Assembly: GCF_003991195.1 (NCBI RefSeq)
Contig: NZ_RCWL01000013.1
Coordinates: forward strand, 1-64,000
Length of the DNA stretch: 64,000 nt
Origin: Gynurincola endophyticus
Lineage (GTDB): Bacteria; Bacteroidota; Bacteroidia; Chitinophagales; Chitinophagaceae
Direction of reading: 5' to 3'
Shown here: positions 5,535-51,068 of the stretch, piece after piece
Layout of the letters: every line of letters starts with the position of its first letter
Position numbering within the stretch: position 1 is the stretch's first letter
Made by a program: the position numbers and the translations under genes
Notes under the pieces: model-generated
Databases searched by the model: none
The model's input: only the letters and a program-made list of their open reading frames with translations
Told to the model about the DNA's origin: nothing

Positions 5535-5538
5535 GCAT

Positions 5539-6231: not shown

Positions 6232-6232
6232 T

Positions 6233-6375
6233 ATTCTTAATTAAGAATTTGCCTGGGTGAAAAAGATGAAGAAAATGAAGGTGGCAATGTTAAACTATGT
6301 TATTTTTCATTGCGTTCTTTTCTTCATTTCCTTCATGTTTAATAGTATTTTAAAATATAGAAGATATTCTTGACT
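6233..6375. repeat. Degenerate intergenic repeat, copy 2, with palindrome
   Basis: The block opens with a perfect 16-bp palindrome (ATTCTTAATTAAGAAT, 6233-6248). A purine-rich half follows (6264-6281, AGATGAAGAAAATGAAGG), and then a pyrimidine-rich half (6311-6340) that reads as an imperfect inverted copy. The 6321-6340 core matches 28-47 of the window closely. It fills the gap between the converging LytTR regulator and thioredoxin genes, so it could act as a bidirectional terminator or be a relic of a small mobile element. Confidence 0.45.
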
Positions 6376-6387
6376 ATCGGTAATTCT

Positions 6388-6693
6388 CTATAAATTTTCA
6401 ATGATCTGTTTTAACTCGTGCTTAGGAGTAACGCCAGATCGTCTCCACTTTTGTTCACCGTTTTGATAAATGATCAGTGTCGGTACGCCGCTAATGCCTA
6501 ATTGTGAGGCCAGAGGCTGGTTCTGATCAACGTCTATTTTGATAATTTTTACTTTATCAGCGAGATCTGCTTTCAATTCACTCAATATGGGTGCCTGCAT
6601 TTTACAAGGCCCGCACCAGGTAGCATGAAAATCTACGATTACCGGAATCTCACTTTTAATTAAGTCTGCAAAACTCGATTTCATATGCTTCAA
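6388..6693 (-). CDS. trxA: Thioredoxin
   Basis: A 101-residue cytosolic thioredoxin with the active site W26-C27-G-P-C30 and the conserved cis-proline region SGVPTLIIY. There is no signal peptide. It reduces protein disulfides. It sits 2 bp downstream of the second YeeE/YedE half-transporter on the same strand, so it is likely co-transcribed with the sulfur-import genes and may serve to reduce imported sulfur compounds or a partner enzyme (inference). The start could be M1 or M4. The symbol is by family; several paralogues are usual in such genomes. Confidence 0.9.
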   Translation of the reverse strand: MKHMKSSFADLIKSEIPVIVDFHATWCGPCKMQAPILSELKADLADKVKIIKIDVDQNQPLASQLGISGVPTLIIYQNGEQKWRRSGVTPKHELKQIIENL

Positions 6694-6695
6694 AT

Positions 6696-7109
6696 TTAAT
6701 GTGGTAAATGATGACGGATTAATCCGTAGATATAGGTTCCTAAAATTGCTCCGAAAATAGCAATTCCCATAGTGAATAACCCTGTTCCTAACATTACAAA
6801 CATGGGGCCCGGGCAGGCTCCGATCAACGCCCAGCCCATTCCGAATAAAGTTCCTCCGATCAGATAACGGGGAATACCTTTTTCTTTTGGTGGCATTTCG
6901 ATCGGTTGACCGTCAATATCTTTTAATTTTTTTCTTTTGATCAGCTGTACGCCAATAACACCGATAAAAAGTGCGGTTCCGATAAAGCCATACATATGAA
7001 AAGATTGAAATTTAAACATTTCATAGATACGGAACCAGGAAGCTGCTTCAGCTTTAAACATCACCACTCCAAACAAAGTGCCTAACAATAAAACGATTAT
7101 ATTTTTCAT
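6696..7109 (-). CDS. YeeE/YedE-family transporter, second half
   Basis: A 137-residue membrane protein starting MKNIIVLLLGTLFG, with about four membrane segments. It carries the Cys motif GACPGP typical of the YeeE/YedE (DUF395/DUF6691) sulfur-compound transporters. The frame is open upstream to 7235, but the ATG at 7109 overlaps the TAA of the upstream half by one base (TAATG), a classic coupled start. In enterobacterial YeeE/TsuA both halves are in one polypeptide that imports thiosulfate; here they are separate genes. Substrate assignment to thiosulfate or a similar sulfur compound is by family. Confidence 0.85.
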   Translation of the reverse strand: MKNIIVLLLGTLFGVVMFKAEAASWFRIYEMFKFQSFHMYGFIGTALFIGVIGVQLIKRKKLKDIDGQPIEMPPKEKGIPRYLIGGTLFGMGWALIGACPGPMFVMLGTGLFTMGIAIFGAILGTYIYGLIRHHLPH

Positions 7110-7663
7110 TACTGGAATATTAAAGGAAATAATACATGAACCATCAGTAATCCACCGATGAAGAATCCGATTACTGCAATCAATGAAGGTAACTGCAGAC
7201 TGCTTAAACCGGTAATGGCATGACCGGATGTACAACCTCCCGCATAACGGGTGCCGAAGCCAACCAGTAATCCACCAACCAATAAAATCAACACATTTCT
7301 AACAGAAAGGCTGTCAAAAATTTCAGGAGGTGCATAAGTTGTACCTACACTGCGGAAGCCCAGGTTTCTGAGGTCCTGAATAGTGGCAGACGAAACATCC
7401 GGTACCTGTACGTCCGACAGCCAATAAGCGCCGATATATCCGCCGATAACGGTGCCGGCAAGAAATAACAGGTTCCATTTTTGAGCTTTCCAGTCGTATT
7501 TAAAAAAACTGACTGATTTACCGGCCCCGAGCGCGGCACAAATGGTTCTGAAGTTGGATGAAAACCCGAAAGTCTTTCCTAAAACAATCAATAATAGCAT
7601 GATGAATGCTACCAACGCACCTCCCACGTACCAGGGCCAGGGTTGCGCAATTAATTCCATCAT
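7109..7663 (-). CDS. YeeE/YedE-family transporter, first half
   Basis: A 184-residue membrane protein with about four to five membrane segments and the motif GGCTSGHAITG, whose cysteine corresponds to the sulfur-relay cysteines of the YeeE/YedE family. It is the first gene of a three-gene set (two half-transporters, then thioredoxin) with a 1-bp overlap into the next gene. It likely forms a heteromeric channel with the following protein and passes thiosulfate or related anions across the inner membrane. No sulfurtransferase (rhodanese or TusA-like) gene is visible next to it. Confidence 0.87.
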   Translation of the reverse strand: MMELIAQPWPWYVGGALVAFIMLLLIVLGKTFGFSSNFRTICAALGAGKSVSFFKYDWKAQKWNLLFLAGTVIGGYIGAYWLSDVQVPDVSSATIQDLRNLGFRSVGTTYAPPEIFDSLSVRNVLILLVGGLLVGFGTRYAGGCTSGHAITGLSSLQLPSLIAVIGFFIGGLLMVHVLFPLIFQ

Positions 7664-8080
7664 AAAAAAAGCTTTAATTATAGTGAATGTAACAATAAAT
7701 AGCAGATTTTGTTATAAAGATAGAATCCCTTCGGGATTCCGGTACCGGATTCTGTAGAATTTAGTGAATACTTTTTTATCTCTATCACTCCGTTTAAGCT
7801 TCGATATTCCCTGTAATGTTTTATAGGTTTAGAATCCGGCAGTAAATATCTTGAAATCATACTAAAGGAAGCAGTAGATCTTTCATGCTGTTGCTCAGAC
7901 CCCGAAGGGGTCTAACATTTATAACCTCGTAACAACGCGGAGCCGACCCTGAAGGGGTCGTACCAGCGTGATCGCCACCAACCGCATCATCCGGCTGTTT
8001 AATACATAAACTTATCAGGTTCTGTACAAAAGCAGTGTTTAAAAGCTATAATTTCATTAACTTCATCTGAAAAACCCAGT
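7664..8080. repeat. REP-like palindromic element cluster
   Basis: This 417-bp gap holds stacked palindromes and no gene. GAATCCC-TTC-GGGATTC lies at 7723-7739. CCGGATTCT at 7745-7753 pairs with AGAATCCGG at 7831-7839. AGACCCC-GAA-GGGGTCT lies at 7897-7913, and CGACCCT-GAA-GGGGTCG at 7944-7960. The last two share the GACCC(C/T)GAAGGGGTC core and are separated by about 30 bp containing TAACAACGCGGAGC. This resembles REP-type repeats seen between genes in Bacteroidota. They may act as terminators or be mobilised in trans by a REP transposase; none is encoded in the window. Confidence 0.6.
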
Positions 8081-9874
8081 ATGCGATCTCTCTTTTTATG
8101 TTTGTTATGTTTGCCGGTATTCGCCAGCGCTCAATCAATTTATTATACAGTAGAAGCACCGAATGCAGCCCACCATGAGGCTGAAATCACAGTGACTGTA
8201 CAAGGCGCAAAAACTGATAGTGTGGAATTTGTAATGAGTAAAGCTTCTCCGGGAAGATATGCAACCCATGAATTTGCGAAAAACGTGTATAATGTAAGAG
8301 CTGTCGACGCAAAAAATAATCCTTTAACAGTGGTAAAATCTGCCTCCAATGCTTATAAAGTGAAAAATGCAGCCACTATTAAACTAACTTATACTTTATT
8401 TGCCAACAGGGCAGACGGTACTTATGCCGGTATTGCCCGTAATGGTTATCAGTTAAATATTCCTGCGAGTTTTATCTGGGTGCGTGGTTTAGACCAGACT
8501 CCGGTCAGTGTTGAATTCAAAAACCTGCCTGAAGGGTGGAGTGTAGCGTCACAATTATTCCCGACTGCTAAAAAAGAAGTATTTACTGCGCCGAATTTCC
8601 AGTATTTTATGGATTCTCCTATTAAGGTAGGAAAGTTACATTGGAGAAACTGGACGGTTAAAAATCCGAATGGTAAAACTTATACGATTGAGTTGGCGCT
8701 GGAAGCAGATGCTCCGGCCGTTGCCATCGACAGCTTTACGAATAACCTGAAAAAAGTGGTGGATGAATCAATCGCTATTTTTGGAGAAGTACCAGAATTT
8801 GATAATGGTAAGTTTACTTTCATCGCCAGCCTGAATCCTTACATTCAGGGAGATGGTATGGAGCACAGAAACTCTACAATCGTTAACTCCAGACGCCAAT
8901 TCGATGGTTCTAACTCTTTTATGGGAACTTTTGCGCATGAGTTCTTCCATGCATGGAACGTAGAAAGAATCCGTCCGAAAAGTTTAGAACCATTTCAGTA
9001 CGATCAGGTAAACATGAGTGAAGCATTATGGTTGGCAGAAGGGTTTACGCAGTATTACACTTCTGTAATTATGACAAGAGCAGGTTTAATGACACCTGAA
9101 GTGTTTCTAAGAAGTATGAACGGTCTGATCAATTCAAAAGAGTCTGCACCAGGTGGAAAGTATTCTGCAGTAGAAAATAGTCAGCGTGCTGTATTTGTAG
9201 ATGCAGGTGTGGCTGTTGATGAAACAAACTATCAGAATATGTTCAGCTCTTATTATTCACATGGTGGAGCGTTGGGTCTGGCTTTAGATTTACAACTAAG
9301 ATCACAATTTAATAAAACACTCGACGATTTTATGACTGCATTGTGGGTAAAACACGGAAAAACAGAAATTCCTTATACATTACCAGATGTAGAAAAAGTA
9401 TTGGAGTCGATTACCAATAAATCTTTCGCACAAAAGTTTTTTAATGATTATGTATATAACAGCCGCCCGATTAATTATAGTACTTTACTGAATCAGGCAG
9501 GTTATGAACTCGCTTTGATGTCTGAAAATAGTAACTGGATCGGTGGTGGAATGTTCAGACCAGGCAAAACCGGTTTAGTAGTAGAGACGGCGACCCGAAA
9601 ATTTACTCCTTTGTATGATGCAGGTTTGGATGTGGGAGACGAAATCATTAGTGTGAATGGAGTAACTGTTAAAAAGAAGGAAGACCTTGACCAGGTAATT
9701 AATTCATTGAAAATAGGAGAGTCAGTAAACATTGAATTCATTTCTTATGGTGACACCATTCAATCGAAGTTAAAGATCGAAGCTAATCCGGCACAGGTAA
9801 TCAAACCAATGACTAATAAAACATCAGCACAGGAAGCTTTCGTACAAAAATGGATTGGTGCTAAAAGAAAGTAA
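8081..9874 (+). CDS. M61-family metallopeptidase with PDZ domain
   Basis: A 597-residue exported protein with a signal peptide (about 1-17, ending ASAQ). The N-terminal M61 beta-domain is followed by a thermolysin-like catalytic domain with H286-E-F-F-H290 and a downstream glutamate in LAEGFTQYYT. A PDZ domain sits near the C terminus (about 495-580). The family includes glycyl aminopeptidases; Bacteroidota members are periplasmic peptidases of uncertain substrate. The gene stands alone, with a strong terminator 20 bp after its stop. The start is fixed by the signal peptide. Confidence 0.92.
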   Translation: MRSLFLCLLCLPVFASAQSIYYTVEAPNAAHHEAEITVTVQGAKTDSVEFVMSKASPGRYATHEFAKNVYNVRAVDAKNNPLTVVKSASNAYKVKNAATIKLTYTLFANRADGTYAGIARNGYQLNIPASFIWVRGLDQTPVSVEFKNLPEGWSVASQLFPTAKKEVFTAPNFQYFMDSPIKVGKLHWRNWTVKNPNGKTYTIELALEADAPAVAIDSFTNNLKKVVDESIAIFGEVPEFDNGKFTFIASLNPYIQGDGMEHRNSTIVNSRRQFDGSNSFMGTFAHEFFHAWNVERIRPKSLEPFQYDQVNMSEALWLAEGFTQYYTSVIMTRAGLMTPEVFLRSMNGLINSKESAPGGKYSAVENSQRAVFVDAGVAVDETNYQNMFSSYYSHGGALGLALDLQLRSQFNKTLDDFMTALWVKHGKTEIPYTLPDVEKVLESITNKSFAQKFFNDYVYNSRPINYSTLLNQAGYELALMSENSNWIGGGMFRPGKTGLVVETATRKFTPLYDAGLDVGDEIISVNGVTVKKKEDLDQVINSLKIGESVNIEFISYGDTIQSKLKIEANPAQVIKPMTNKTSAQEAFVQKWIGAKRK

Positions 9875-10570: not shown

Positions 10571-11428
10571 ATGAGTATTAGAATTGAGCAGATATTCCCA
10601 TTTTCAAAAGAAATGGTCTGGAAGGCTATTACCGATAAAGCCAATATGAAAGAGTGGTATATGGATATTCAGGACTATGAACCGGTAGTGGGTAAAAAGA
10701 TTCAGTTTTATGAAAGCGGCGCTCAAAAGTATTTACACGAAATAGAGTTTTTGGAAGTCATCCCTCAGACTTTCATCAAGCATACCTGGCGTCATCCCGA
10801 TCATTCGAAAGGTACCAGTACCGTTACCTGGTTACTGGAAGAAGTGTCGGGTGGGTCTAAGCTGTCGTTGATTCATGAAGGTACCGACCAGTTTGCCGAT
10901 GCCGGTGAAGGTTTTTCAACCGCTGATTTTGAGTTTGGCTGGACGGGTATCATTCAAATGGGATTGAGATTATACCTGTTGGGAATGAAGTTATTTACCT
11001 TTCAGCAGCGGTTTGATGTAACTGCAACAGCTTTGTGGAATGTAATGTTTAAGAATGAAGGATTAAGAGAATGGACAAAAGCATTTGAGCCATCTACGAT
11101 TGTACAGGGAGATGTAGAAACCAGTGACAGTATTTGGTTTTTAAACGACAGAAGAGAGGGGTGGGCTACCAATGTAGTATTGAGAAAACCACCGATGTAT
11201 TTTTATCTGGTATTAGCAGGTAAGGTAAAAAATGGTGAAATGGTAGAGGCTTCTGCTGATCCTGATGAACCGCTTGGTTTGATGGAAATGTATAATCTGA
11301 TACCGGTAGATGAATATTCTACTCTTTTAAAAGTACAGGCTCATGGAGCCGCAGAAAACGAAGCGCATTTGCGGGAGGCTTATGAACGGGCGTTCCAGAA
11401 AATTCAGGAAATGGTGGGTAATAGATAG
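10571..11428 (+). CDS. SRPBCC (START/AHSA1-like) protein with two domains
   Basis: A 285-residue soluble protein that opens like AHSA1/Aha1-type SRPBCC domains (MSIRIEQIFPFSKEMVWKAI, with WYMDIQDYEPVVGKKIQF and HTWRHPDHSKGTSTVTW). A second half (about 135-285) begins again with a TATALWNVMFKNEGLREW-like segment, suggesting two tandem hot-dog/helix-grip domains. The family binds hydrophobic ligands or acts as a chaperone cofactor; no specific role can be named. The ATG at 10571 is preferred over a TTG two codons earlier. It may be co-transcribed with dps. Confidence 0.8.
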   Translation: MSIRIEQIFPFSKEMVWKAITDKANMKEWYMDIQDYEPVVGKKIQFYESGAQKYLHEIEFLEVIPQTFIKHTWRHPDHSKGTSTVTWLLEEVSGGSKLSLIHEGTDQFADAGEGFSTADFEFGWTGIIQMGLRLYLLGMKLFTFQQRFDVTATALWNVMFKNEGLREWTKAFEPSTIVQGDVETSDSIWFLNDRREGWATNVVLRKPPMYFYLVLAGKVKNGEMVEASADPDEPLGLMEMYNLIPVDEYSTLLKVQAHGAAENEAHLREAYERAFQKIQEMVGNR

Positions 11429-11536
11429 AGTTGATTGACCCATTAACTTTTTATCAGTAAGGTTATTGTTGAATATATGTGTTAAATATAGATTTGTAAA
11501 TGCCTTTTTTGAATAGTGTTGTATTGTCAATAGTTT

Positions 11537-11564
11537 TTGGTTTGTAAGAAAAATCCTAAGTTTG
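11537..11564 (+). promoter_or_regulatory. Bacteroidota-type promoter for the ECF sigma gene
   Basis: TAAGTTTG at 11557-11564 matches the Bacteroidota -7 consensus TAnnTTTG exactly, and TTG at 11537-11539 sits 17 bases upstream as the -33 element. The start codon of the sigma factor follows 33 bp after the -7 element. Confidence 0.5.
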
Positions 11565-11597
11565 GTAAGTTATTCTACTTAATTACTGAATCAGATT

Positions 11598-12200
11598 TTG
11601 AAAGAAACGGGCGATATAAAACTCTTATTAAAGCAAATTGCATTAGATGATCATAATGCATTCAATCGCCTGTTTACCTATTATAGTAAGCAGGTAAATG
11701 GTGTTGTAAAGAAAATAACCGGCAGCCAGCAAATTGCCGAAGAAATTGTACAGGATACCTTTTTGAAAGTTTGGTTAAAACGAACTTCACTACCCGGGAT
11801 AGAAAATTTTGAAGCCTGGCTTTATGTTGTTGCCAGAAACTACACCTTAAAAGCACTACAGTCAAAACATGTCAGAAACACTTCAAGTGTGGAAGACGGC
11901 ACTTTTGAAAAACATCTGATCAGTGAAGGAAAAACTGACTGGAAAGTAAGAGAAGCACAATATGATCAATTGCTCAAAACTGCAATTGACCGTTTGCCAT
12001 TAAAGCAAAAAGAAACCTACCTTCTTATAAAAGAGAATCAATACAGCAGAAATGAAGTGGCTGCATTGTTAAATGTTTCTCCCGAAACAGTTAAATATAA
12101 TCTCACTCAGGCCATGAAAAGTATACGGGCATATTGTATCGTTTACTTCGAAGAAAATTCTACCATTATAATATTCTTCATATATATAGCAGTTTGCTAA
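11598..12200 (+). CDS. ECF RNA polymerase sigma factor
   Basis: A 200-residue ECF sigma factor with region 2 (about 20-85, AFNRLFTYYSKQVNGVV and EEIVQDTFLKVWLK) and region 4 (about 130-180, LPLKQKETYLLIKE and SRNEVAALLNVSPETVKYNL). It ends in a hydrophobic tail (TIIIFFIYIAVC), as is common in SusCD-linked sigma factors. The start is TTG at 11598; no ATG gives a complete region 2. It probably directs transcription of the downstream proteases, FecR and SusCD genes. Its FecR anti-sigma partner lies 5.2 kb away, after two protease genes. Confidence 0.9.
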   Translation: MKETGDIKLLLKQIALDDHNAFNRLFTYYSKQVNGVVKKITGSQQIAEEIVQDTFLKVWLKRTSLPGIENFEAWLYVVARNYTLKALQSKHVRNTSSVEDGTFEKHLISEGKTDWKVREAQYDQLLKTAIDRLPLKQKETYLLIKENQYSRNEVAALLNVSPETVKYNLTQAMKSIRAYCIVYFEENSTIIIFFIYIAVC

Positions 12201-12358
12201 AAAATGTTAAGAGTACCCACCCATTCTTATTTATCCGGGATCATATAGTTATTGGCGGAAGCTTATAGTTTTTGCATTGCACAACAATGGTTGATAGCGA
12301 TGATGGTAGTTCTATGCCTTTGCAAAATGATTTATGAATGATTAAAAAAAATTAACTC

Positions 12359-14719
12359 ATGCAGCCGATTAAGGTTTTGTTATCACTATTATTAATGGTA
12401 ATAAGTTTTTCAGATATATATGGTCAGGATATGGGTCATGGTCCTTTTGATCTGGAGTTATCTTCAGGAAAGTATATCCTGAAAATTAGTAAAAAAGTTA
12501 TTGACAGAGAATTTAAACTGGTTACGAGAGTTGCTAAAGGTTTTGCCGTAACAGATAAGTACGATAATAAAAAACTTCCGGCCGGAAGAGAGATGAGTGT
12601 TGTCAGTGCGAAATTTACTATCGCTGCTGATAAAAGAATTCAACTGGTTAATACAGCAAATCTGAATCGTATAGCTGATGTAAACACTCCCTTATATAAA
12701 TCTGTTGCAGGTATATCGAATGAAGGAATCGTGGCCGTTTTTGAACAACTTGCGTCATCTTCTGCTGATACGATAAGAATTGATTTTACTTCTTTTATCA
12801 TGGAAGATAACGACTACTTTGCCATATGCGATCCTTACAAAAAGATGTTCAATCTATTGCAATATCAACCTGCAAAATCTGTTTTTTTATTCCGTGAACG
12901 TTTTGATGAAGGAATTGATTTTCGCTTTACCAGAACATATAATTCTACCGCAGGTAATAAAAGTGTGGACGTTAATACCACTTTTTTATTGTTAAGCGAA
13001 AAGCCGATGACTCCCCGTTTTGCAGACTATCGGGTAACAGGTATGGGGTTCAATACTCAATCATTTAATGATTATTCTTCCAATCCTTTATATGTAGTCA
13101 GAAATGAATATGCATACAGGTATAACCTCTATCCCTCAAAAAAAGATGAGCAGCATTACCTGAAAGGTAAACTGGTAGAACCCGTAAAACCAATTATCTT
13201 TTATATCGAGCCGGCAACACCAAAGGAATGGTTGCCCTACATGAAAGCAGGTATTACAGCCTGGGCAAAAACATTTGAGCGGGCAGGGTTTAAAAATGCT
13301 GTTCAGGTGCGCGAAGTGGCTGATGATGATAGAAATTTTAACATACAGTCGGCCAGGTATAATACGCTTGTGTATAACCCTTCGGAAAGTTATGGAGGAA
13401 GTGCTGATCTGTTGATCGATAACAGAAGCGGTGAAGTAATCACCAGCAGAATACAATGGCCGCATAGTAATCCGCATCATCTGATGAAAAGATACATGGT
13501 GTTGGCAGGTGCTTCTGACATTGAAGCCAGAAGTATGCATATGCCTGTTTCATTAGTAGGTGAGTTGATGAAAGTGGTAGTGTCGCATGAAATGGGGCAT
13601 TGTCTGGGTATACATCATAACTATTTATCGTCTTCATTAATTCCGGTAGAAAATCTGCGAAATAAAAAATGGGTAGAAAAAAATGGATTTACTTATTCAA
13701 TTATGGATTATGCCCGTCACAATTATGTAGCTCAGCCGGAAGATAAAATTGGAAGGGAAGGATTGATTCCCGGAATCGGACAATATGATTACTGGGCAGT
13801 TGAATGGTTGTATAAGTGGTACCCCGATCAGAATCCAACCACCGAAAAAGAAAAATTGGATAAACTCTATGATCTCAGGGTAAAGAAACAACCGGAGCTA
13901 CAGCATATAAATATTCATCTCGCAAAATTTGATTATCGTTTAAGAATGGAAGATGTTGGAGATGACCCGCTGAAAGCATCTGAATATGGAATAAGAAATC
14001 TGAAATTTGTTGCACCGAATATTCTTGAATGGACACGTGATCAATCTGGTGAATACAATTATTTCAATGCATTGGAAGTGTATAAGGAATTGTTTTTACA
14101 GCTTAAATATTTTCTTACTCATGTAAATAACCTGATAGGAGGTACAACGATTACTCTGAACAAAATCAATTCAATGCAAATATCAGGATGGGTATCAGCT
14201 TCGCGGCAAAAAGAAGCGATAAACTTTATCGGAGAAAATGTATTTAAAAATACAGAATGGCTTTTAGAAAATAAAACTTCGGCAGCACTCTCAGCAGCAA
14301 ATACTAATAGTAGTTCTTACGAAATGTTGATTGGCCTTCAGAATTACACGATAGAAGCACTATTTGATTTAAGAAAAATCCCGTTTTTATTGACAAACTC
14401 ACGGCTTGATCAGGAACGATATACTTTCAATGAGCTCATGACTGACGTTGAAGAACAGTTATTCAATGAAATTACCAGTTCTGAAAAAATTGGAGCTGAC
14501 AGAAAACGCTTACAACGAAAATATCTGGAGCGGATCGCACAATTACTTCCTGCCTTTTCAAAAGATCAATTGATGGTTGAATGTGTGCCAGTTGTAAAGG
14601 AACATATGTTTTACTTATCTGAACTATTCAAAAAGAAAATCAATTCATATTCCTCCGCTAGTGAGCGTATACATCTTCAACAGCTTATCGAAATTTCAGA
14701 TAAAAACCTGCATTTCTGA
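12359..14719 (+). CDS. Secreted zinc metalloprotease (DUF5117/DUF4953, metzincin-like), copy A
   Basis: A 786-residue protein with a signal peptide (about 1-22, ending YGQ), the family N-terminal start QDMGHGPFDLEL (DUF5118/DUF5117-like region) and a metzincin zinc site HEMGHCLGIHH at 410-420. A conserved tail domain follows (DUF4953-like, with YSIMDYARHNYVAQPED, where the methionine may form the Met-turn). The family is exported and presumed proteolytic; substrates are unknown. It is the first of two adjacent paralogues placed between an ECF sigma factor and its FecR. No lipobox is visible, so it is probably periplasmic or secreted rather than lipid anchored. Confidence 0.88.
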   Translation: MQPIKVLLSLLLMVISFSDIYGQDMGHGPFDLELSSGKYILKISKKVIDREFKLVTRVAKGFAVTDKYDNKKLPAGREMSVVSAKFTIAADKRIQLVNTANLNRIADVNTPLYKSVAGISNEGIVAVFEQLASSSADTIRIDFTSFIMEDNDYFAICDPYKKMFNLLQYQPAKSVFLFRERFDEGIDFRFTRTYNSTAGNKSVDVNTTFLLLSEKPMTPRFADYRVTGMGFNTQSFNDYSSNPLYVVRNEYAYRYNLYPSKKDEQHYLKGKLVEPVKPIIFYIEPATPKEWLPYMKAGITAWAKTFERAGFKNAVQVREVADDDRNFNIQSARYNTLVYNPSESYGGSADLLIDNRSGEVITSRIQWPHSNPHHLMKRYMVLAGASDIEARSMHMPVSLVGELMKVVVSHEMGHCLGIHHNYLSSSLIPVENLRNKKWVEKNGFTYSIMDYARHNYVAQPEDKIGREGLIPGIGQYDYWAVEWLYKWYPDQNPTTEKEKLDKLYDLRVKKQPELQHINIHLAKFDYRLRMEDVGDDPLKASEYGIRNLKFVAPNILEWTRDQSGEYNYFNALEVYKELFLQLKYFLTHVNNLIGGTTITLNKINSMQISGWVSASRQKEAINFIGENVFKNTEWLLENKTSAALSAANTNSSSYEMLIGLQNYTIEALFDLRKIPFLLTNSRLDQERYTFNELMTDVEEQLFNEITSSEKIGADRKRLQRKYLERIAQLLPAFSKDQLMVECVPVVKEHMFYLSELFKKKINSYSSASERIHLQQLIEISDKNLHF

Positions 14720-14854
14720 TGCAGTTTTAACTTTTATGTTTTAGCATAGTTTCATTGATTTAAGAATAAGGGATATGAAAGAGCTGCTATTGTTGAGACG
14801 ATCTAAAAAAAATCTTCGCATTCTCAAGGAGTGCAGTATTTATAAAAATAACAT

Positions 14855-17227
14855 ATGCGTATACTAAAAAAATTCTTTTCATTGATAGTAATCCTGTCAG
14901 CTTCTTTAACTGTTCAATCGCAGGATATGGGTGCCGGTCCGATAAATATTGAAATAACAGATGGTAAATATATTATGACCATCGATGAGTCTGTAATAGG
15001 AAGAGACATTAAAATTTTAACAACGGTAGCGCAAGGGGCTGTAATACCAGAAATGAATCTTACGAAAAACCTTACCGGGTCTGCCGGTAAAATTTTTGGC
15101 GATAATCAGGTGAAATTTATTCTTAACAGAGAAGGGGCTGTTTTATTGGTAAATCATAAAAATATGAAGTTGATAGCAGATACTTCTCTACCGCTATATC
15201 AGGCGATAGAAGGAGTTTCCAAACCTGCTACGATAGCAACTTTTAAACCCCTGCCAGAATCAACTCCGGGAAAAATAAGAATGGATATTACAACCTTTTT
15301 GTCAGAGGATAATATTTATATGGGATTGGCTGATAATATGAAACAATTTTATGGAGTGGGGCAAAGCCAGCATTCGAAATTTGAATTTTTATTCAGAGAG
15401 CGTTTTGACAGAGGATTGGATATACGTATTTCCAGAACTTACAGTACCACAAACGGATTCAGGTCTATGGAATTTAATACCACATTTTTACTGCTCTCTG
15501 AAAAACCAATGGTGCCACGCCTGGCAAATTATAATGTAAATGCCATGGTGTTCAATGTACGGAAATTCTGGGACTTTGGTACCAATCCCTATTATGCTGT
15601 TAAGAATGAATATGCATACAGATATGATATTCGTCCGGCTGAAAAAGACAAACCCGCTTATCTGAAAGGAAAGCTGGTTTCTCCTGAGAAAAAGATTGTT
15701 TACTATATAGATCCTTCCACACCAACAGAGCTGGTAAAGTATATGAAAGCCGGTATCTCCGCATGGTCAAAAACCTTTGAAGGTGCAGGGTTTAAAGATG
15801 TAATTGAAGTAAAAGAAGTTAAAGAGGAAAAATCAGATTTTAATATCTTTTCTGCCCGGTATAATGTTCTGGTATATGCAGCTTCTGATAGTTATGGAGG
15901 GTCTGCTGATCTGACGGTTGATTTCAGGAGCGGAGAAATTGTTCAGAGTAAAATTTACATACCACATAGTAACCCGCATCATCATATGAAACAATACATG
16001 ATACAGGCTGGTGCTGCTGACCCCAATGGCAGAACTATGAATATGCCAATATCGATGGTAGGTGCATTTGCGCAGTCAGTAGTTTCGCATGAAATGGGTC
16101 ATTGTTTGGGAATTCATCATAATTACATCTCTTCTTCACTGATACCTGTTGAAAATTTACGCAATAAAAAATGGGTAGAAGAAAATGGTATATCTTATTC
16201 GATTATGGATTATTCACGATATAATTATGTTGCCCAGCCTGAAGACGGTATCAGTTTAAAGGGCATGCTGCCAAAAGTAGGCCTCTATGATCATTGGGCA
16301 GTAGAATGGTTGTACAAATGGTATCCCGATGAGAACCCTGTTGAAGAGAAGAAAAAGCTAGACAAGTTGTATGATGAAAAAATTAAAAAAAATATCGCTA
16401 TAAAATATCTGAATATTGATTATTACAGAGACGATTACAGAATAAGAATGGAAGATGTAGGAGATGACCCTGTACTCGCTTCTGAATACGGCATTAAAAA
16501 TCTTAAAAAAGTAGTACCGAATATACTTGAATGGACTAAAGAGCCCAACGGTGAATATAATTATGAAAATGCCCGCGCTGTATTCTCAGAAGCTTATATA
16601 CAAATGAAAAACTACATGGAACATGTAGCAGCATTGGTAGGAGGGTCTGAGATCAGCTTTAATAAAATCAATTCACCTGTTTTGAGTGCATGGGTAAGCA
16701 AAGCCGAACAAAAAAGAGCTGTTGAATTTATAGGGAAAAATATTTTTACTACACCGGAATGGTTCCTGGATAAAAATCTTACCGCCGCATTTACCAATAC
16801 GCAGATGAACCAGACTCCTTTTGAGCTGCTAACTACGCTACAGAATCAGACGATTGCCAAATTATTCGAAGCGCAAAAAATTTCAAAACTGGAGAAATCG
16901 AAACAATTTAAAGAAGATCAGTATACTCTTGATGAGTTGATGAGCGATGTGGAATATTATATATTTAGTGAAATGAATAATCCGGGTAATATCAGCCAGG
17001 TAAAAAAAGTACTACACCGTAAGTACATTGATAACTGGGAGCTGATGTTAACCTATTACCCTAAAAATACCACCTTATATGAATCGGTAACAACCATTCA
17101 AAAACATTTGAGTGACCTTAAAACAATGTTTGACTCTAAAAAGAATGCTTTTGCTGAAGAAACCGATCAATTTCATTTGACGATGTTAAGCAACCGGGTA
17201 AAAGTAATTCTTGAAAAATCTCTGTAA
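14855..17227 (+). CDS. Secreted zinc metalloprotease (DUF5117/DUF4953, metzincin-like), copy B
   Basis: A 790-residue paralogue of the preceding gene, collinear along its length: signal peptide (about 1-22, ending QSQ), QDMGAGPINIEI, zinc site HEMGHCLGIHH at 412-422, YSIMDYSRYNYVAQPED, and the same C-terminal segment with the GDDP motif (RMEDVGDDP). Both catalytic motifs are intact, so neither copy looks degenerate. The pair arose by tandem duplication, followed by considerable divergence. The 135-bp gap after copy A has no clear terminator, so the two are probably in one transcript. Role inferred only from the family. Confidence 0.88.
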   Translation: MRILKKFFSLIVILSASLTVQSQDMGAGPINIEITDGKYIMTIDESVIGRDIKILTTVAQGAVIPEMNLTKNLTGSAGKIFGDNQVKFILNREGAVLLVNHKNMKLIADTSLPLYQAIEGVSKPATIATFKPLPESTPGKIRMDITTFLSEDNIYMGLADNMKQFYGVGQSQHSKFEFLFRERFDRGLDIRISRTYSTTNGFRSMEFNTTFLLLSEKPMVPRLANYNVNAMVFNVRKFWDFGTNPYYAVKNEYAYRYDIRPAEKDKPAYLKGKLVSPEKKIVYYIDPSTPTELVKYMKAGISAWSKTFEGAGFKDVIEVKEVKEEKSDFNIFSARYNVLVYAASDSYGGSADLTVDFRSGEIVQSKIYIPHSNPHHHMKQYMIQAGAADPNGRTMNMPISMVGAFAQSVVSHEMGHCLGIHHNYISSSLIPVENLRNKKWVEENGISYSIMDYSRYNYVAQPEDGISLKGMLPKVGLYDHWAVEWLYKWYPDENPVEEKKKLDKLYDEKIKKNIAIKYLNIDYYRDDYRIRMEDVGDDPVLASEYGIKNLKKVVPNILEWTKEPNGEYNYENARAVFSEAYIQMKNYMEHVAALVGGSEISFNKINSPVLSAWVSKAEQKRAVEFIGKNIFTTPEWFLDKNLTAAFTNTQMNQTPFELLTTLQNQTIAKLFEAQKISKLEKSKQFKEDQYTLDELMSDVEYYIFSEMNNPGNISQVKKVLHRKYIDNWELMLTYYPKNTTLYESVTTIQKHLSDLKTMFDSKKNAFAEETDQFHLTMLSNRVKVILEKSL

Positions 17228-17369
17228 AACATAATATTAGCGACCAGGCCAATGAATCGGAGAAAATACATTCGAACTTTTGGGGAAGTACAGAAAGAAA
17301 CTAATTTTTCTTAATTGCCCCCCAAACTTTAAATTCGGGGATCATATAAAAGGGAATAAATATTTTCAG

Positions 17370-18581
17370 ATGGATAAAAGTCAACCCGGTATGAACGAAT
17401 TGCCTCGTTTATTTCAGAAAGTACTGAAAAATGAAGCTACGGAAGACGAAAAAAGAGCGCTGGCCGACGCAGCGCGTGATCCCCGCTATGCCGAAGTAAT
17501 AGCGCAACTGCTTGATGAAAGTTTTGCCGATGAGCAAAATGCAGAACCATTGGAGGGGGACGTGCAAAATATGATACTGAATGCCATCTGGCAATCAGAG
17601 AAATCAGATGAAAAGGAGCTTATAATACCTGTAAGAAAAAGCATTTACAGTAACTGGTTAAGAGTTGCGGCGGCAGTTATTGTGGTGGTGGGATTGGGTG
17701 TATTAGGTTTAACCTTATTTAGAAATGAAGCTGACGTGCCTGTAACAAAAGGAGAACATATCTTACCTGCACAGGAAGGAATAACACTTCGTTTGTCAAA
17801 CGGAAAAACGGTTCAGCTAAACGACAGTATTCCGGATCTGCAACTGGAAGAGATAGGAGGTGCCGTTTCGCGTGCTGAGGATGGAACATTGGTTTATAAA
17901 ACAACTGATAATGCTTCTACCCCAGATTTGTGGAATACCGTTTCAACAGGTAAAGGGCAGTCTGTGGCGGTCGTTTTACCTGATAACAGCCGTATCTGGC
18001 TGAATGCTAATTCAAGTATTAAATACAGTTCAAACCTAAGCAATGCGGAAGAACGTTACGTAGAAATTGAAGGAGAAGCTTTTTTTGAGGTAGCAAAACA
18101 ATTTATCAGTACTGACCCGGCCAAAAGAAAACCGTTTCTTGTGAAAACTCCACAGCAACTGGTAAAAGTACTGGGAACACAATTTAATATCAGTACTTAC
18201 CAGCAAAATATAACCTATACTACACTGGTAGAAGGTTCGATAGAGGTGAATGTTGCAGAAAAGAAAGAATTGCTGAAACCCGGGCAGCAATCAATCGTAA
18301 AAAATAAACAACTGACTGAAATAATAAATGTTAATACAGATCAGGTAACTGCATGGAGAAATGGAATTTTTTATTTTGATCAATACACCATTGATCAGGC
18401 TTTAAATGAAGTTCAGAACTGGTACGATGTAAGTATAATATTTGAAGGTGAAAAGACGAAGGAAGTGTTTTCGGGAATGATCAGCAGGCATAAACCTTTA
18501 AGTGAATTATTAGACATGCTGGAGAAAACCGGTGCCGTGAAATTTAAAGTAATGGGGAATAAAATACATGTATTACAATAA
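17370..18581 (+). CDS. FecR-family anti-sigma factor
   Basis: A 403-residue protein with a cytoplasmic N-terminal sigma-binding region, one membrane segment (about 97-117, NWLRVAAAVIVVVGLGVLG) and a periplasmic FecR domain (about 190-300, with LPDNSRIWLNANSSIKY and VEIEGEAFFEVAK). A C-terminal DUF4974 domain follows (about 325-403, with ALNEVQNWYDVSIIFEG). It receives the signal from the STN domain of the outer-membrane receptor and releases the ECF sigma factor. The frame is open to a TTG at 17280, but the ATG at 17370 gives the normal N terminus. It precedes the SusC gene by about 250 bp. Confidence 0.92.
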   Translation: MDKSQPGMNELPRLFQKVLKNEATEDEKRALADAARDPRYAEVIAQLLDESFADEQNAEPLEGDVQNMILNAIWQSEKSDEKELIIPVRKSIYSNWLRVAAAVIVVVGLGVLGLTLFRNEADVPVTKGEHILPAQEGITLRLSNGKTVQLNDSIPDLQLEEIGGAVSRAEDGTLVYKTTDNASTPDLWNTVSTGKGQSVAVVLPDNSRIWLNANSSIKYSSNLSNAEERYVEIEGEAFFEVAKQFISTDPAKRKPFLVKTPQQLVKVLGTQFNISTYQQNITYTTLVEGSIEVNVAEKKELLKPGQQSIVKNKQLTEIINVNTDQVTAWRNGIFYFDQYTIDQALNEVQNWYDVSIIFEGEKTKEVFSGMISRHKPLSELLDMLEKTGAVKFKVMGNKIHVLQ

Positions 18582-18647
18582 ATAAAATCAAAACTAAAAT
18601 CTGTTTAAAAGAATGATAGCATTAAACTCTTCTTCATAAATAAAAAA

Positions 18648-18670
18648 ACCAGAAGAAAAATTCTTCTGGT
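18648..18670. promoter_or_regulatory. Hairpin between FecR and SusC genes
   Basis: A perfect 10-bp stem (ACCAGAAGAA at 18648-18657, TTCTTCTGGT at 18661-18670) has a 3-base loop. There is no T-run after it on the plus strand, while the A-run before it gives a T-run on the minus strand. In the sense direction it could therefore be a weak attenuator or an RNA-processing and stability element rather than a full terminator. Confidence 0.5.
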
Positions 18671-18828
18671 GTAAACATTTCCTTTTCAGAAAATTTATCA
18701 CAACCGGATGGAATGTGGAAGCTCTCTCCGGTTGAATTGTTTAACTAAACAAATCTAAGTAATTATTGCGTAAATGCAATGACAGGTTATTCTTATGCCT
18801 GTAAGATTTGTTTCAATTACTGCTAAAA

Positions 18829-21800
18829 ATGACCAAAACTAACATTGAGTTCCTCCAAAGGAACTTGAGAAAATATTGGATGATAATGAAATTAGTATCC
18901 TTCTTTCTATTGATCTCCATTCTTCAGGTATCCGCAAACACCTATGCTCAGAAAATTAATCTGAATGAGAAGAATAAAACCCTGATTGAAGTTTTCTCGA
19001 AAATCAGGCAACAAGCTGATTATGACTTTATTTTTACTGGTTCTGCTATTAAAGGGATAGGTAAAATATCTGTATATGCAAAAGATGAAGATATTTTGTC
19101 TGTGATCAACAAAATGTTCATTACACTGCCTATTGATTATAAAATTGAAGGCACAACAGTTATTCTTGTCAGAAACGATCATAAACTTCCAAAGGTTGTA
19201 GCCCCTTCGGTTGAAGAATTAGCGGTTATCAAAGAAGTAAGAGGAAGGGTGGTTGATGTGTCGGGCATTCCCTTACAGGGAGCTACTGTAAAGGTCTCCG
19301 GTAAATCTATTCAGACTGTGACGGATAGTAAGGGCTATTTTATGCTCGAAAATGTGCCTGATGATGCTTTTCTGGAACTGAGTTTTGTGGGATATCAACC
19401 TTTAAAAGTGAAAGCTGCTGCTGCCATGGGTGATCTTATACTTCAGGTGGAAGTCGGAGAACTCAATCAGGTGGTGCTGAATGCGGGATACTATTCTGTA
19501 AGAGATAAAGAGAAAACCGGAAATATAACAAAGGTATCTGCAGAAATTATTGAACGTCAGCCAGTGATTAATGTATTGGGAGCCTTGCAGGGAAGAGTTG
19601 CCGGACTGGATATCGTTGAAACCGGTGGCATGGCCGGAAATATGGTGCAGGTAAATCTTCGTGGCAGAAATAGCATTGCCGGTGGAACTGATCCCCTCTA
19701 TATCATTGATGGTGTACCTTTTTCTTCTGAATCTTTAGGCGACTTTCAGGTTTCACGTCAGTTGGCAATGGGTAGTTATGGTGTATTAAGTACACTGAAT
19801 ACATTGAATGGGAATGATATTGAAAGTATCGAAGTTTTAAAAGATGCGGATGCTACCGCGATATATGGGTCGCGCGGTGCCAACGGGGTAATTCTGATTT
19901 CAACCAAAAAAGGAAAAGCGGGAAAAACAAAGTTTGACTTTTCTCTCAACGCGGGCATCAATAAACCTACTATGGGTACAGAAATGCTGAATACTCAGGA
20001 GTATATCGCTATGAGGAAAGCAGCGTTCGCTCAGGATGGTATTACGACTTATCCTGTTTCAGCTTATGATATTAATGGAGCATGGGATACTACAAGGTAC
20101 ACGAATTGGTATGAGACACTATCAGGACGTACATCGTCAAGGATGAATTCTCAACTGTCAGTTTCAGGCGGAAATGAACTTACTCAGTTTCTGATCAGCG
20201 GAACTTTCCTGAAACAAAAACCCTCTTTTCCGAAAGCTTATGATTTTAGCTATCAGAGAACCAGTGTACATACGAACCTGAATCACCGGTCAGAAAACAA
20301 GAAATTCTCAGCTAATCTTACCATCAATTATTCCACTGATTTTAATAATGCTCCGGGAGAAGATCCGAATTCATTGGCCATGATCAGGCCTCCCAATTCG
20401 CCACAGATGTACAATGAAGATGGTTCTTTACACTGGGAAACCGGATTCAACAACCCCCTCGCAATCTTTAATAAAACTTATGAGTCAAATACCAAAGCTT
20501 TAAATGCTACCATGAGCCTGAATTATGATTTCGGGCATGGGATCACGTTCAGCAGCCGGTTTGGATACAACGATTATAATGTATATGAATATTTTACAAG
20601 CCCACATACTATTTATGCGCCTAGTCCTGATATTGGTGCTGAACGATCTTCAGCCTATGATAATAAAGGAAACCGTAATTCGTGGATTATAGAGCCACAG
20701 CTAAACTGGAAAAAAGAAATAGGGAAAGGTACCCTCGATGTACTGGTGGGAACAACTTTTCAAAAATCAACTTCTAAAAAAGAAAGTGCCTATGGAAGTA
20801 ATTTCCCCAGTGACGCACTTATCTATGACATGAGATCGGCTGTAACTTACCGGATAAGATCGTCAGAAAATGTTCTCTATAAGTATAACGCCGTTTTTGG
20901 AAGAATAAATTATAATTGGGATCGCAGGTATATTGTAAATATGACCGGGCGCAGAGATGGTTCAAGCCGGTTCGGCCCTGGTAAACAATTCGCCAACTTC
21001 GGTGCGATAGGTGCTGCCTGGATACTGTCTGAAGAAAACTTCATGAAGAATATAACCTTCCTGAGTTTCGCTAAGCTTAGAGGTAGTATCGGACTCACAG
21101 GAAATGATCAGATCGGTGACTATCAGTTTTTGAATACTTATTCAGCAGCCGACAGATATGGATCTGTAACCGGAATGAAACCTACTAAACATTATAATCC
21201 TGATTTTAGCTGGGAAACAAATAAGAAAACAGAACTGGCATTGGAATTAGGATTTTTCAACGACAGGTTGATGATAGCAACATCCTTTTATAAAAACAAA
21301 TCGTCTAATCAACTGGTTGGCCTGCCTATTCCTGTAATGACAGGATTTGAAACGGTATTAGCCAATCTTGATGCCGTAGTGGAGAATAAAGGAATAGAGG
21401 TGGAGATTAATACTGTCAATATTAAAACAAAAGATTTTAGCTGGACAACCGCTTTTAATTTCTCCAGACCAAGAAATAAACTGGTTTCATATCCGGGACT
21501 GCAATCATCTGCTTATGCCAATACGTATAAAGTTGGAATGCCATTGAGTGTATCAAGAGTATTTACCTATACAGGAATAGATCCGGTAACGGGCGTTTAT
21601 ACCTTTGAAGATGTAAATAAAGATGGATTTTTAACGCATAATGATGATCGGAAGAAATGGTTGTATGTAGGGCTGAATTATTCAGCTGGGATGAACAATA
21701 CGATTACTTATAAAAGATTACATCTGGATGTGTTTTTTCAATATGTAAATAAAACGGCGACAAACTTTTTTTATAACAGAGGTGCTACCGGCGGTATGTT

Positions 21801-22143
21801 CGGAAATGTAAGCAGAGATCTGTTGGATAACTGGACATATAACAAGGAAAACCCTAAATTCCAGCGTTTAACAACCGGCGCAAATACGCAGGCGATCACT
21901 GCCAACTCAAACATCGGTTATAGTGATGTTTCTATTTCCGATGCCTCTTTCTTTCGCTTGAAAAATGTGCAACTGGCTTATGATATCCCGGAAAAGTTAT
22001 TAGGTATCCGTGGAAGTATTTATGTGCAGGGACAGAATCTGCTGACTTTTACAAAATTTCCCGGATCTGATCCTGAAAATGCCCTCTCTTCTTACATGGC
22101 CCCGTTGAAAGTATGGAATTTCGGAATGCAGATAACATTCTGA
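18829..22143 (+). CDS. SusC/RagA-family TonB-dependent transporter with STN domain
   Basis: A 1,104-residue outer-membrane receptor. After the signal peptide (ending NTYAQ) come a secretin/TonB N-terminal (STN) signalling domain (about 45-120), a carboxypeptidase-regulatory-like domain (VRGRVVDVSGIPLQGATVKV), a plug (VLGALQGRVAGLDIVE, then ADATAIYGSRGANGVILI) and a long beta-barrel ending in the usual aromatic-rich strand (VWNFGMQITF). The STN domain marks it as a transducer that contacts FecR. The start at the ATG 18829 is preferred over the TTG at 18808. The imported substrate is unknown; no glycosidase is nearby, and the two proteases suggest a peptide or glycoprotein ligand (inference). 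Confidence 0.93.
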   Translation: MTKTNIEFLQRNLRKYWMIMKLVSFFLLISILQVSANTYAQKINLNEKNKTLIEVFSKIRQQADYDFIFTGSAIKGIGKISVYAKDEDILSVINKMFITLPIDYKIEGTTVILVRNDHKLPKVVAPSVEELAVIKEVRGRVVDVSGIPLQGATVKVSGKSIQTVTDSKGYFMLENVPDDAFLELSFVGYQPLKVKAAAAMGDLILQVEVGELNQVVLNAGYYSVRDKEKTGNITKVSAEIIERQPVINVLGALQGRVAGLDIVETGGMAGNMVQVNLRGRNSIAGGTDPLYIIDGVPFSSESLGDFQVSRQLAMGSYGVLSTLNTLNGNDIESIEVLKDADATAIYGSRGANGVILISTKKGKAGKTKFDFSLNAGINKPTMGTEMLNTQEYIAMRKAAFAQDGITTYPVSAYDINGAWDTTRYTNWYETLSGRTSSRMNSQLSVSGGNELTQFLISGTFLKQKPSFPKAYDFSYQRTSVHTNLNHRSENKKFSANLTINYSTDFNNAPGEDPNSLAMIRPPNSPQMYNEDGSLHWETGFNNPLAIFNKTYESNTKALNATMSLNYDFGHGITFSSRFGYNDYNVYEYFTSPHTIYAPSPDIGAERSSAYDNKGNRNSWIIEPQLNWKKEIGKGTLDVLVGTTFQKSTSKKESAYGSNFPSDALIYDMRSAVTYRIRSSENVLYKYNAVFGRINYNWDRRYIVNMTGRRDGSSRFGPGKQFANFGAIGAAWILSEENFMKNITFLSFAKLRGSIGLTGNDQIGDYQFLNTYSAADRYGSVTGMKPTKHYNPDFSWETNKKTELALELGFFNDRLMIATSFYKNKSSNQLVGLPIPVMTGFETVLANLDAVVENKGIEVEINTVNIKTKDFSWTTAFNFSRPRNKLVSYPGLQSSAYANTYKVGMPLSVSRVFTYTGIDPVTGVYTFEDVNKDGFLTHNDDRKKWLYVGLNYSAGMNNTITYKRLHLDVFFQYVNKTATNFFYNRGATGGMFGNVSRDLLDNWTYNKENPKFQRLTTGANTQAITANSNIGYSDVSISDASFFRLKNVQLAYDIPEKLLGIRGSIYVQGQNLLTFTKFPGSDPENALSSYMAPLKVWNFGMQITF

Positions 22144-22187
22144 TAAAAAGTGAAAGACGAAATTTTATAACGTATTAAAAGAAAAGT

Positions 22188-23576
22188 ATGAAATCGTATC
22201 ATCTCTATAAATGGCTTTGCCTGTTTTGCTTAATATTATTTTCCGCATGTACAAAATTTGTGGAAGTGGAACCTCCGAAATCTCAGTTGTTGAGAAAAGA
22301 ATTATTTTCATCTGATAAAGCTGCAGAAACTGCACTGGCAGGAATGTATGCTTATTTAAGAACCAATAGCTTTCTTACAGGATCTATTGTCAGCTCCGTA
22401 GAATACCTGGGTTTATACGCTGATGAAATAGAGTATATAAACCCTACTGTTAATGACAGATACTTTTTCTCAAATAGTATATTAAACCCATCGATTAATC
22501 AGGTTTATAATCTGTGGTCATATTCTTTTCAGGCAATATATCTGGCCAATTCAATTCTTGAGGGGGTAGAGGAGTCTACCAATCTGAGTGAAGGTGTAAA
22601 AGAAAGACTGGTTGGTGAAGCGTTGTTTGTACGGGCACTGATACATTTTTATCTTGCCAACACTTATGGAAATATACCTTATGTAACAACTACTGATTAT
22701 TTTCAAACAAAGAATCAGGGTAAGATAACTGTTGATGAAGTTTATACAGCAATATTAAAAGATCTGAAAGTAGCAGAAAATTTATTGTTAGAAAATTATC
22801 CGATTGCCGAACGTGTACGTCCGAATAAATGGGTGGTTAAATCTTTTATGGCGAGAGTATACTTATATCAGAAAGACTGGCCGAATGCCCTGCTACAGTC
22901 TTCAGAGGTGATTGGTAATATTGCACTGTATGACATAGAGCCTGTGTTGAACAAAGTGTTTTTAAAAGAAAGTAAAGAAGCAATCTGGCAGTTTAAACCT
23001 TCACAGGATGGTATTAATGCATCAGAAGGAACTTTTATAATGGTTCAGGATCCGTCAATAGCTGGTTTTGTAATCCGAGATGAATTTCTCAATGCGCATG
23101 AAACCGGTGATAAAAGGTTAACAGACTGGTTAGGACTTTTTACTATAGGAAATAATTCATGGCACTATCCTTACAAGTATAAACAGAGAAATCCTACAGG
23201 TACCGTTAGTGTGGAATATAGTATTGTATTCAGGCTGGCGGAACAATACCTGATAAGGGCTGAAGCTTTAGCGCAGACAGAACAATATACTGATGCGTTG
23301 AAAGATTTGAATAAAATCAGAAATCGTGCTGACCTGGATGATTTTGTTTCATCAGATAAAGACGAAATTTTGGACGCTATATTAAAAGAAAGAAGAATTG
23401 AGTTCTTTATGGAAATGTCGCATCGCTGGTTTGACCTGAAACGTATGAATAGAACTGAGGAATTCCTGAGTCCTTTAAAACCTGAATGGTCAGTGAATAA
23501 TGATTTATTGCCAATTCCATTAAAGGAGCTGGAGGCAAACCGTAATCTTTTACCGCAGAATAATGGATATAATTAG
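22188..23576 (+). CDS. RagB/SusD-family surface lipoprotein
   Basis: A 462-residue lipoprotein (lipobox LFSAC, acylated C21) with the SusD-like TPR fold. The N-terminal SusD-like_3 region has VEPPKSQLLRKELFSSDKAAETAL, and the C-terminal RagB/SusD part has LNKIRNRADL, ILKERRIEFFMEMSHRWFDLKRM and LLPIPLKELEANRNLLPQN. It caps the preceding SusC transporter and binds the ligand at the cell surface. It follows SusC by 44 bp and ends the cluster; no enzyme gene follows on this strand. Confidence 0.93.
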   Translation: MKSYHLYKWLCLFCLILFSACTKFVEVEPPKSQLLRKELFSSDKAAETALAGMYAYLRTNSFLTGSIVSSVEYLGLYADEIEYINPTVNDRYFFSNSILNPSINQVYNLWSYSFQAIYLANSILEGVEESTNLSEGVKERLVGEALFVRALIHFYLANTYGNIPYVTTTDYFQTKNQGKITVDEVYTAILKDLKVAENLLLENYPIAERVRPNKWVVKSFMARVYLYQKDWPNALLQSSEVIGNIALYDIEPVLNKVFLKESKEAIWQFKPSQDGINASEGTFIMVQDPSIAGFVIRDEFLNAHETGDKRLTDWLGLFTIGNNSWHYPYKYKQRNPTGTVSVEYSIVFRLAEQYLIRAEALAQTEQYTDALKDLNKIRNRADLDDFVSSDKDEILDAILKERRIEFFMEMSHRWFDLKRMNRTEEFLSPLKPEWSVNNDLLPIPLKELEANRNLLPQNNGYN

Positions 23577-23742
23577 AACCTTTTGGTTTGTTTTGGTTAA
23601 TGAGTTCAGGCAAATCTGAACCAGGAATAGATGGATTCGGGGTAACCGGATCCATTTTCTTTTTATTACTTAAAGTTTTGAGATGGCAGGGAGTTTTAAT
23701 CTTCTCATGGTAGTGTTTCAATAGAGCTGGTTTTAAAAGCAA

Positions 23743-23770
23743 AAAGGTCACTCTTTCCAGAGTGACCTTT
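23743..23770 (-). terminator. Terminator of the tRNA-Asp gene
   Basis: A perfect 12-bp inverted repeat (AAAGGTCACTCT at 23743-23754, AGAGTGACCTTT at 23759-23770) has a 4-base loop. On the minus strand it comes 1 bp after the tRNA 3' end and is followed by a T-run, as expected of an intrinsic terminator. Confidence 0.85.
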
Positions 23771-23771
23771 G

Positions 23772-23845
23772 CGGACCGGACGGGACTCGAACCCGCGACC
23801 TCCGCCGTGACAGGGCGGCATTCTAACCAACTGAACTACCGATCC
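23772..23845 (-). tRNA. tRNA-Asp (anticodon GUC)
   Basis: On the minus strand the sequence folds as a 74-base tRNA. The acceptor stem is GGATCGG with CCGGTCC (one T-G pair) and discriminator G. The D-arm contains AGTTCAGTTGGTTAGAA, the anticodon loop is CTGTCAC (GUC), and the T-arm contains GTTCGAGTC. CCA is not encoded. The G discriminator fits bacterial tRNA-Asp. A terminator follows immediately. Confidence 0.96.
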
Positions 23846-24016
23846 TTAATCACTCATACACAAGGTATTGCGTGATTGGGGTGCAAATATAAATCGAAAA
23901 ATCAATTTTCAAATATTTTTTAATTATTTTTTTGAAAATTTAATTAATGGTATGAAAATCAATAAAAAGTATTGTGAAGTTGGTGTTTTATAACGTTAGC
24001 TATAGGTTACTTTCTT

Positions 24017-24130: not shown

Positions 24131-24218
24131 GCCCGGTAGGTTAAGATAAGCTACTGAAGCTTTTGAAGAGCATTTTTCACTGCTGTTTTTGTTGCGTGCT
24201 GATGGCTTTGCTACTATT

Positions 24219-25028: not shown

Positions 25029-25038
25029 ATCGTTTTAT

Positions 25039-51056: not shown

Positions 51057-51068
51057 AAAGTAGATGCA

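Follow-up and report, generated by a model that had tools for sequence, protein, structure and literature searches.

The locus lies in a 64-kb stretch of Gynurincola endophyticus DNA, the whole of which is referred to below as the window. The sequence-only reading had described a sigma factor gene, two intact and collinear DUF5117/DUF4953 proteases, FecR, SusC, and SusD, and this order was confirmed with every gene on the + strand:

11598-12200, + strand: ECF sigma factor gene (FecI-like, TIGR02985-like), 200 aa; Pfam Sigma70_r2 1e-12 and r4_2 1e-10, above cut-off
12359-14719, + strand: metzincin 1, DUF5117 plus DUF4953, 786 aa; Pfam DUF4953 5e-85, DUF5117 8e-25
14855-17227, + strand: metzincin 2, paralogue of metzincin 1, 790 aa; Pfam DUF4953 1e-87, DUF5117 8e-16
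17370-18581, + strand: FecR anti-sigma gene; Pfam FecR 2e-17 and FecR_C 1e-16, above cut-off
18808-22143, + strand: SusC/RagA TonB-dependent receptor; TIGR04056 688 bits; Plug
22188-23576, + strand: SusD-like lipoprotein; SusD-like_3 and SusD_RagB (Pfam); lipobox LFSAC near the N-terminus
23629-23657, + strand: terminator-like hairpin at the cluster end; 12-bp stem and T-rich tail

With an ECF sigma, a FecR carrying FecR_C, and a SusC-type receptor, the cluster has the gene content of sigma/FecR/SusC cell-surface signaling. The sigma scored 114.9 bits against TIGR02985, under the 126.4 cut-off, and its closest relatives among 294 family genomes were 45-46% identical. The SusC N-terminus gave a weak STN match (Pfam, 21.7 bits, E 1.8e-4, cut-off 28.4), and the nearest SusC relative with near-full coverage was 43% identical. 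The listed FecR open reading frame (ORF) starts at TTG 17280, with an in-frame ATG at 17370 that is probably the start used. A further hairpin with a T-rich tail follows metzincin 1 (14708-14724).

Just past the SusD end and terminator lies a tRNA-Asp gene (23771-23845, − strand), of which no second partial copy of at least 14 bases was found in the whole 64-kb window. A second sigma/FecR/TonB-receptor cluster, in normal order on the − strand (24219-30380), is convergent with the studied cluster, and positions 43910-58435 hold a likely alpha-glucan (dextran) utilization locus, comprising a hybrid two-component regulator, SusC, SusD, SusE/F-like, GH66, and GH31 genes.

Two predicted metzincins, most likely periplasmic

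Aligned with each other, the two proteases are identical at 389 of 778 columns (50%), and the active site HEMGHCLGIHHN ... SIMDY is present in both. The zinc motif reads HEMGHCLGIHH in metzincin 1 and metzincin 2, leaving HExxHxxGxxH intact, and this motif was found in 68 of the 69 DUF4953 proteins examined; HExxHxxGxxH is the metzincin zinc motif and SIMDY the Met-turn. In Pfam, DUF4953 scored 285.9 and 294.5 bits (cut-off 24.2) and DUF5117 scored 88.2 and 58.8 bits (cut-off 27). DUF5118 was absent from both at E<=0.001, whereas an N-terminal DUF5118 was found in the three relatives scanned (the second copy in locus L185, L204, and L206). An AlphaFold model of metzincin 1 was of fair quality (pLDDT 77.6, pTM 0.78) and returned 0 matches to PDB folds at E<=0.001, and the protease sequence gave nothing meaningful against PDB. 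As the model has no convincing PDB neighbor, the assignment rests on Pfam and the motif; by these the proteins are metzincins, with predicted proteolytic activity. Our literature search found no paper on DUF5117 or DUF4953.

Both proteases start with what was judged by eye to be a Sec-type signal peptide, and neither has a Cys lipobox at its N-terminus or a Pfam match to Por_Secre_tail (T9SS). Because Sec-type signal peptides come here without lipobox or secretion tail, the periplasm is the likeliest place for both. The sequence-only reading had suggested that the proteases may be regulon members that feed a peptide ligand to SusCD; the ligand part of that suggestion fits these termini poorly, and periplasmic digestion of imported polypeptide is more likely than a supply of ligand to SusCD from outside.

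Sigma and FecR are seldom separated

Profile searches of the genome found 15 genes with FecR_C and 47 matches to sigma region 4. As the sequence-only reading had supposed, adjacency is the usual state: 14 of the 15 FecR genes adjoin a sigma (13 co-directional, 1 divergent), and the studied one, 5 kb from the nearest, is the exception. The gap between its sigma and FecR is 5080 bp. A second FecR of the window (28657-29685) lies beside a separate sigma, at 29796, and since the other 14 FecR genes each adjoin a sigma of their own, sigma 11598 and FecR 17370 are taken as partners by elimination; the assumed pairing stands, another FecR partner being unlikely.

The same picture emerged from comparison loci, which were fetched by similarity to the sigma, SusC, or protease rather than at random and include the window's 2 FecR genes. 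Here 53 of 59 FecR ORFs had an upstream same-strand sigma, 50 of these 53 within 401 bp; the remaining same-strand pairs were separated by 2277 bp (L177), 2538 bp (L142), and 5080 bp (the studied cluster). Of the other FecR ORFs, 4/59 were divergent to a sigma and 2/59 ran off the locus end. The L177 sigma may not be the partner of its FecR, because opposite-strand genes intervene. With our own profiles, sigma adjoined FecR in 12 of 13 own-genome loci outside the window; in L224 the FecR ORF was labeled SusC by those profiles, yet has a Pfam FecR_C match.

The gene order is apparently confined to this lineage

The order itself was not conserved: contrary to what orthologous clusters might have been expected to keep, none of 67 other DUF4953 genes lies between a sigma and its FecR. 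Elsewhere, the protease tends to come after SusD. SusCD lies upstream of a DUF4953 gene on the same strand in several loci, directly so (20-57 bp) in L166, L204, and L206, and in other such loci thioredoxin-like and other genes sit between them. The order sigma-FecR-SusC-SusD-protease occurs in four loci (L052, L203, L204, and L206), which share with the studied cluster the kinds of gene, the single strand, and a protease within the cluster. They differ in that the protease is a single copy after SusD and sigma adjoins FecR, and the L204 and L206 proteases carry DUF5118.

Protease relatives were distant. The best among 294 family genomes were 37-38% identical; 396 order genomes at E<=1e-140 returned only the cluster's own proteases, and 395 phylum genomes at E<=1e-125 returned these plus one at 38%, the three samples overlapping and each covering part of all species. 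In genome_contigs, a single-protein query found no protease homologue and a pair-alignment query found 25 loci at 32-35%; viral_contigs yielded no protease homologue. A tree of 69 DUF4953 proteins groups the two window proteases as sisters, separated from the other 67 by a branch of 3.69, a length that is uncertain (quick search, midpoint root). Two named Chitinophagaceae rows cluster with the same-family rows there, and from this placement alone Chitinophagaceae is the probable host family. The arrangement is apparently limited to this lineage, and our literature search found no description of it or of the spacer element presented below. Protease GC (36.7 and 36.5%) falls inside the 35.2-40.7% of the neighboring genes measured, and composition thus gives no sign of recent transfer.

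Two further systems resemble parts of the cluster. L185/L207 (G027) likewise has a tandem DUF4953 pair upstream of SusC-SusD, plus two thioredoxin-like genes, but that pair belongs to a different part of the DUF4953 tree, and no sigma or FecR was found in L185, whereas the studied cluster has both. The L185 copies lie at 3-2396 and 2440-4950; the first is without the canonical zinc motif (REVGHTLGLRN) and may serve the second as a pseudoenzyme partner. In L142 (G197, 5402-9726), the order sigma, ATPase_2 gene, FecR, SusC, SusD likewise has a foreign gene splitting the pair, the cargo being an ATPase_2 family AAA ATPase of 499 aa rather than proteases. E. coli FecI-FecR-FecA cell-surface signaling shares a sigma, a FecR, and a TonB-dependent receptor with the studied cluster (families by Pfam); relative to that system, the studied cluster has a SusC/SusD receptor and inserted proteases.

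An ECF-promoter-like element in sigma-FecR spacers

Side-by-side reading of the sigma-FecR spacers of the nearest relatives revealed a bipartite element, approximately CTCACCCAA-N15/16-GTCTCTATA, with boxes about 14-17 nt apart. A two-box model was trained on 29 relatives' spacers with the window left out; its seeds were picked by eye after the relatives' spacers and the window copies had been viewed, and the choice was not blind. In leave-one-out scoring of 24 non-redundant spacers, 15 reached p<0.05 and 10 reached p<0.01; nine missed p<0.05, some of them since the 130-nt stretch stopped short of the FecR-proximal site. A model built from 19 of the 29 spacers reached p<0.05 upstream of 19 of 57 FecR ORFs versus 6 of 62 SusC ORFs; the FecR set overlaps the training loci, and in it the window FecR was scored from the TTG, placing the right copy described below outside the scored stretch.

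Among held-out loci, the element was found upstream of FecR in L142 (score 22.0, 0/200 shuffles) and L143 (16.5); L134 and L135 outscored both, but have close relatives in training. It was absent upstream of FecR in L052, L203, L204, and L206, unlike in the studied cluster, and L222 was the one clear case (13.8, offset 16) among 13 other own-genome loci, with L226 at 10.2. As judged from these spacers, the element is characteristic of a subset of the sigmas. A different conserved element, approximately TACCCCCTCGG...CACCGGACAGTATATACG, was seen upstream of FecR in L128 (13763), L134 (13983), and L135 (1114), which represent another sigma group within a single genus; the letters of the element may follow the sigma clade.

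Two copies of the element flank the protease pair

Applied to the window, the relatives-trained model placed one copy on each side of the proteases, with ranks given among all sites on both strands of the 64 kb:

12216-12249, + strand: left copy of the ECF-promoter-like element, CCCACCCAT-N15-ATCATATAGT, rank 14
17317-17350, + strand: right copy of the element, GCCCCCCAA-N15-ATCATATAAA, rank 17

The left copy lies upstream of metzincin 1, 15 nt past the sigma stop (relatives mostly 15-18 nt), with a shuffle p of 0.019 anywhere in the spacer and 0/5000 at the relatives' typical offset. The right copy ends ~20 nt before the FecR ATG, which is the relatives' distance, with a shuffle p of 0.034 anywhere and 0.008 at the relatives' typical position. 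Scores were moderate, at 11.9 and 11.8 for left and right; relatives reach 25.8, and 13 window sites outscore both. The boxes of the two copies are CCC and ATCATATA. No good match was found in the other tested intergenic stretches of the cluster, including upstream of SusC. In L142 the element likewise sits just upstream of FecR, but no second copy was found after the sigma (L110 spacer, score 4.1, p 0.19).

The copies also agree in letters beyond the consensus. Both contain GGGATCATATA, inside a 31-bp ungapped match (22/31), and TTCSGGGATCATATA with 0-1 mismatch occurs only at these two sites in the 4.5 Mb genome; the pairwise spacer match was weak (shuffle p 0.018 and 0.048, uncorrected for the 10 pairs compared). 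Relatives' FecR upstream regions showed no excess of the 11-mer (mean 7.31 vs 7.25, 55 regions), and the relatives' element carries other letters at the downstream box. By coordinate arithmetic, removing one repeat unit would give a ~68-nt spacer, inside the usual range. The 11-bp repeat GGGATCATATA was considered as a target-site duplication flanking the cassette and disfavored, the repeat corresponding to the downstream part of the relatives' promoter-like element; for this reason promoter duplication is preferred. No transposase-like ORF was listed between the repeats, and no inverted ends were visible by eye. An insertion that used the element as short homology is possible.

Housekeeping-type promoter matches upstream of sigma

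The Bacteroidota housekeeping promoter includes a −33 TTG. A scan of the + strand of 11000-24500 for TTG-N17..23-TAnnTTTG gave matches only upstream of sigma, with further matches beginning at 11466 and 11469 besides the following:

11537-11564, + strand: housekeeping-type Bacteroidota promoter match, TTG-N17-TAAGTTTG, by pattern scan

The consensus TAnnTTTG is given for Bacteroidota in PMC9723704. Since such matches sit only upstream of sigma on this strand, we propose basal sigma expression together with two sigma-dependent promoters. In Bacteroides thetaiotaomicron, ECF sigmas have been linked to SusC/D regulons and to promoters of non-canonical type (PMC12596196), a precedent that makes sigma-dependent promoters plausible in general without bearing on this sigma.

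Discussion

Taken together, we propose, with a probability of about 0.6, that a metzincin cassette was inserted into a sigma-FecR spacer that now has an ECF-type promoter on both sides, such that proteases and importer are co-induced and digestion is periplasmic. The two-gene cassette probably inserted into the spacer such that a promoter remained on each side, the insertion itself being the presumed cause of the second element copy. Basal sigma would come from the housekeeping promoter. Cargo bound by SusCD would signal via SusC and FecR, by a presumed path, to free or activate sigma, which would then fire the two copies of the element, taken as its own promoter, one for both proteases and one for FecR-SusC-SusD. 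Exported by Sec, the proteases would most likely act in the periplasm on imported polypeptide, this location and substrate being presumptive, and importer and digestive enzymes would rise together. Because a promoter-like element flanks the cassette on both sides, the proteases and FecR-SusCD probably belong to a single sigma regulon. The regulon part of the sequence-only reading thus gains support, given the element upstream of both metzincin 1 and FecR and the housekeeping match only upstream of sigma. The recurrence of a protease with sigma/FecR/SusCD, although after SusD in L204, L206, L203, and L052, also supports this explanation.

The same genes might instead be read through on one transcript, with sigma, proteases, FecR, and SusCD all expressed from the promoter upstream of sigma, the element copies being chance or relics and the order having arisen by neutral rearrangement of an ordinary cluster. 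The genes are collinear with short gaps, + strand housekeeping matches occur only upstream of sigma, and the element copies score moderately. We give this reading a real but minor chance. Set against it, the two copies stand at the expected offsets (0/5000 shuffles; p 0.008) and match beyond the consensus, and the hairpin with T-rich tail at 14708-14724 lies after metzincin 1. It is considerably less probable that the proteases make, outside the cell, a peptide that SusCD senses and imports. DUF4953 proteases do recur beside SusCD, in four cases with sigma/FecR upstream (L052, L203, L204, and L206), but neither window protease has the N-terminal lipobox that the cluster's SusD has, nor a Por_Secre_tail.

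Finally, the proteases could act on the signaling chain, as the sequence-only reading had also suggested, for example by trimming periplasmic FecR or SusC and thereby tuning the gain of the switch or its resetting. They lie between sigma and FecR, are likely periplasmic, and have an element copy of their own, all of which is consistent with this, and in E. coli RseP cleaves FecR (PMC8144685). The genome's other 14 sigma-FecR pairs, however, are adjacent without a protease cassette between them, and relatives encode the protease downstream of SusD, where a nutrient enzyme would be expected; of the three alternatives we consider this the least likely. In one specific form, a dedicated, sigma-controlled periplasmic metzincin pair, distant from all other DUF4953 proteins sampled, would cut its own cluster's FecR or SusC signaling domain, with the proteases and FecR-SusCD fired separately by the same sigma via the duplicated promoter. 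We consider that form a long shot, but if true, cell-surface signaling would here include a proteolytic step of its own.

For the insertion and co-induction that we favor, what is new is the ECF-promoter-like spacer element and its two copies around the protease cassette. Sigma-FecR-SusCD clusters are abundant in Bacteroidota. The broader use of the finding, as read from the spacers, is the element itself, which stays next to FecR when cargo separates FecR from sigma and may allow regulon members to be predicted directly. It also suggests a route by which cargo genes may enter a regulon, namely insertion between two copies of the promoter of that regulon. For the studied cluster, the proteases become testable members of an import circuit.
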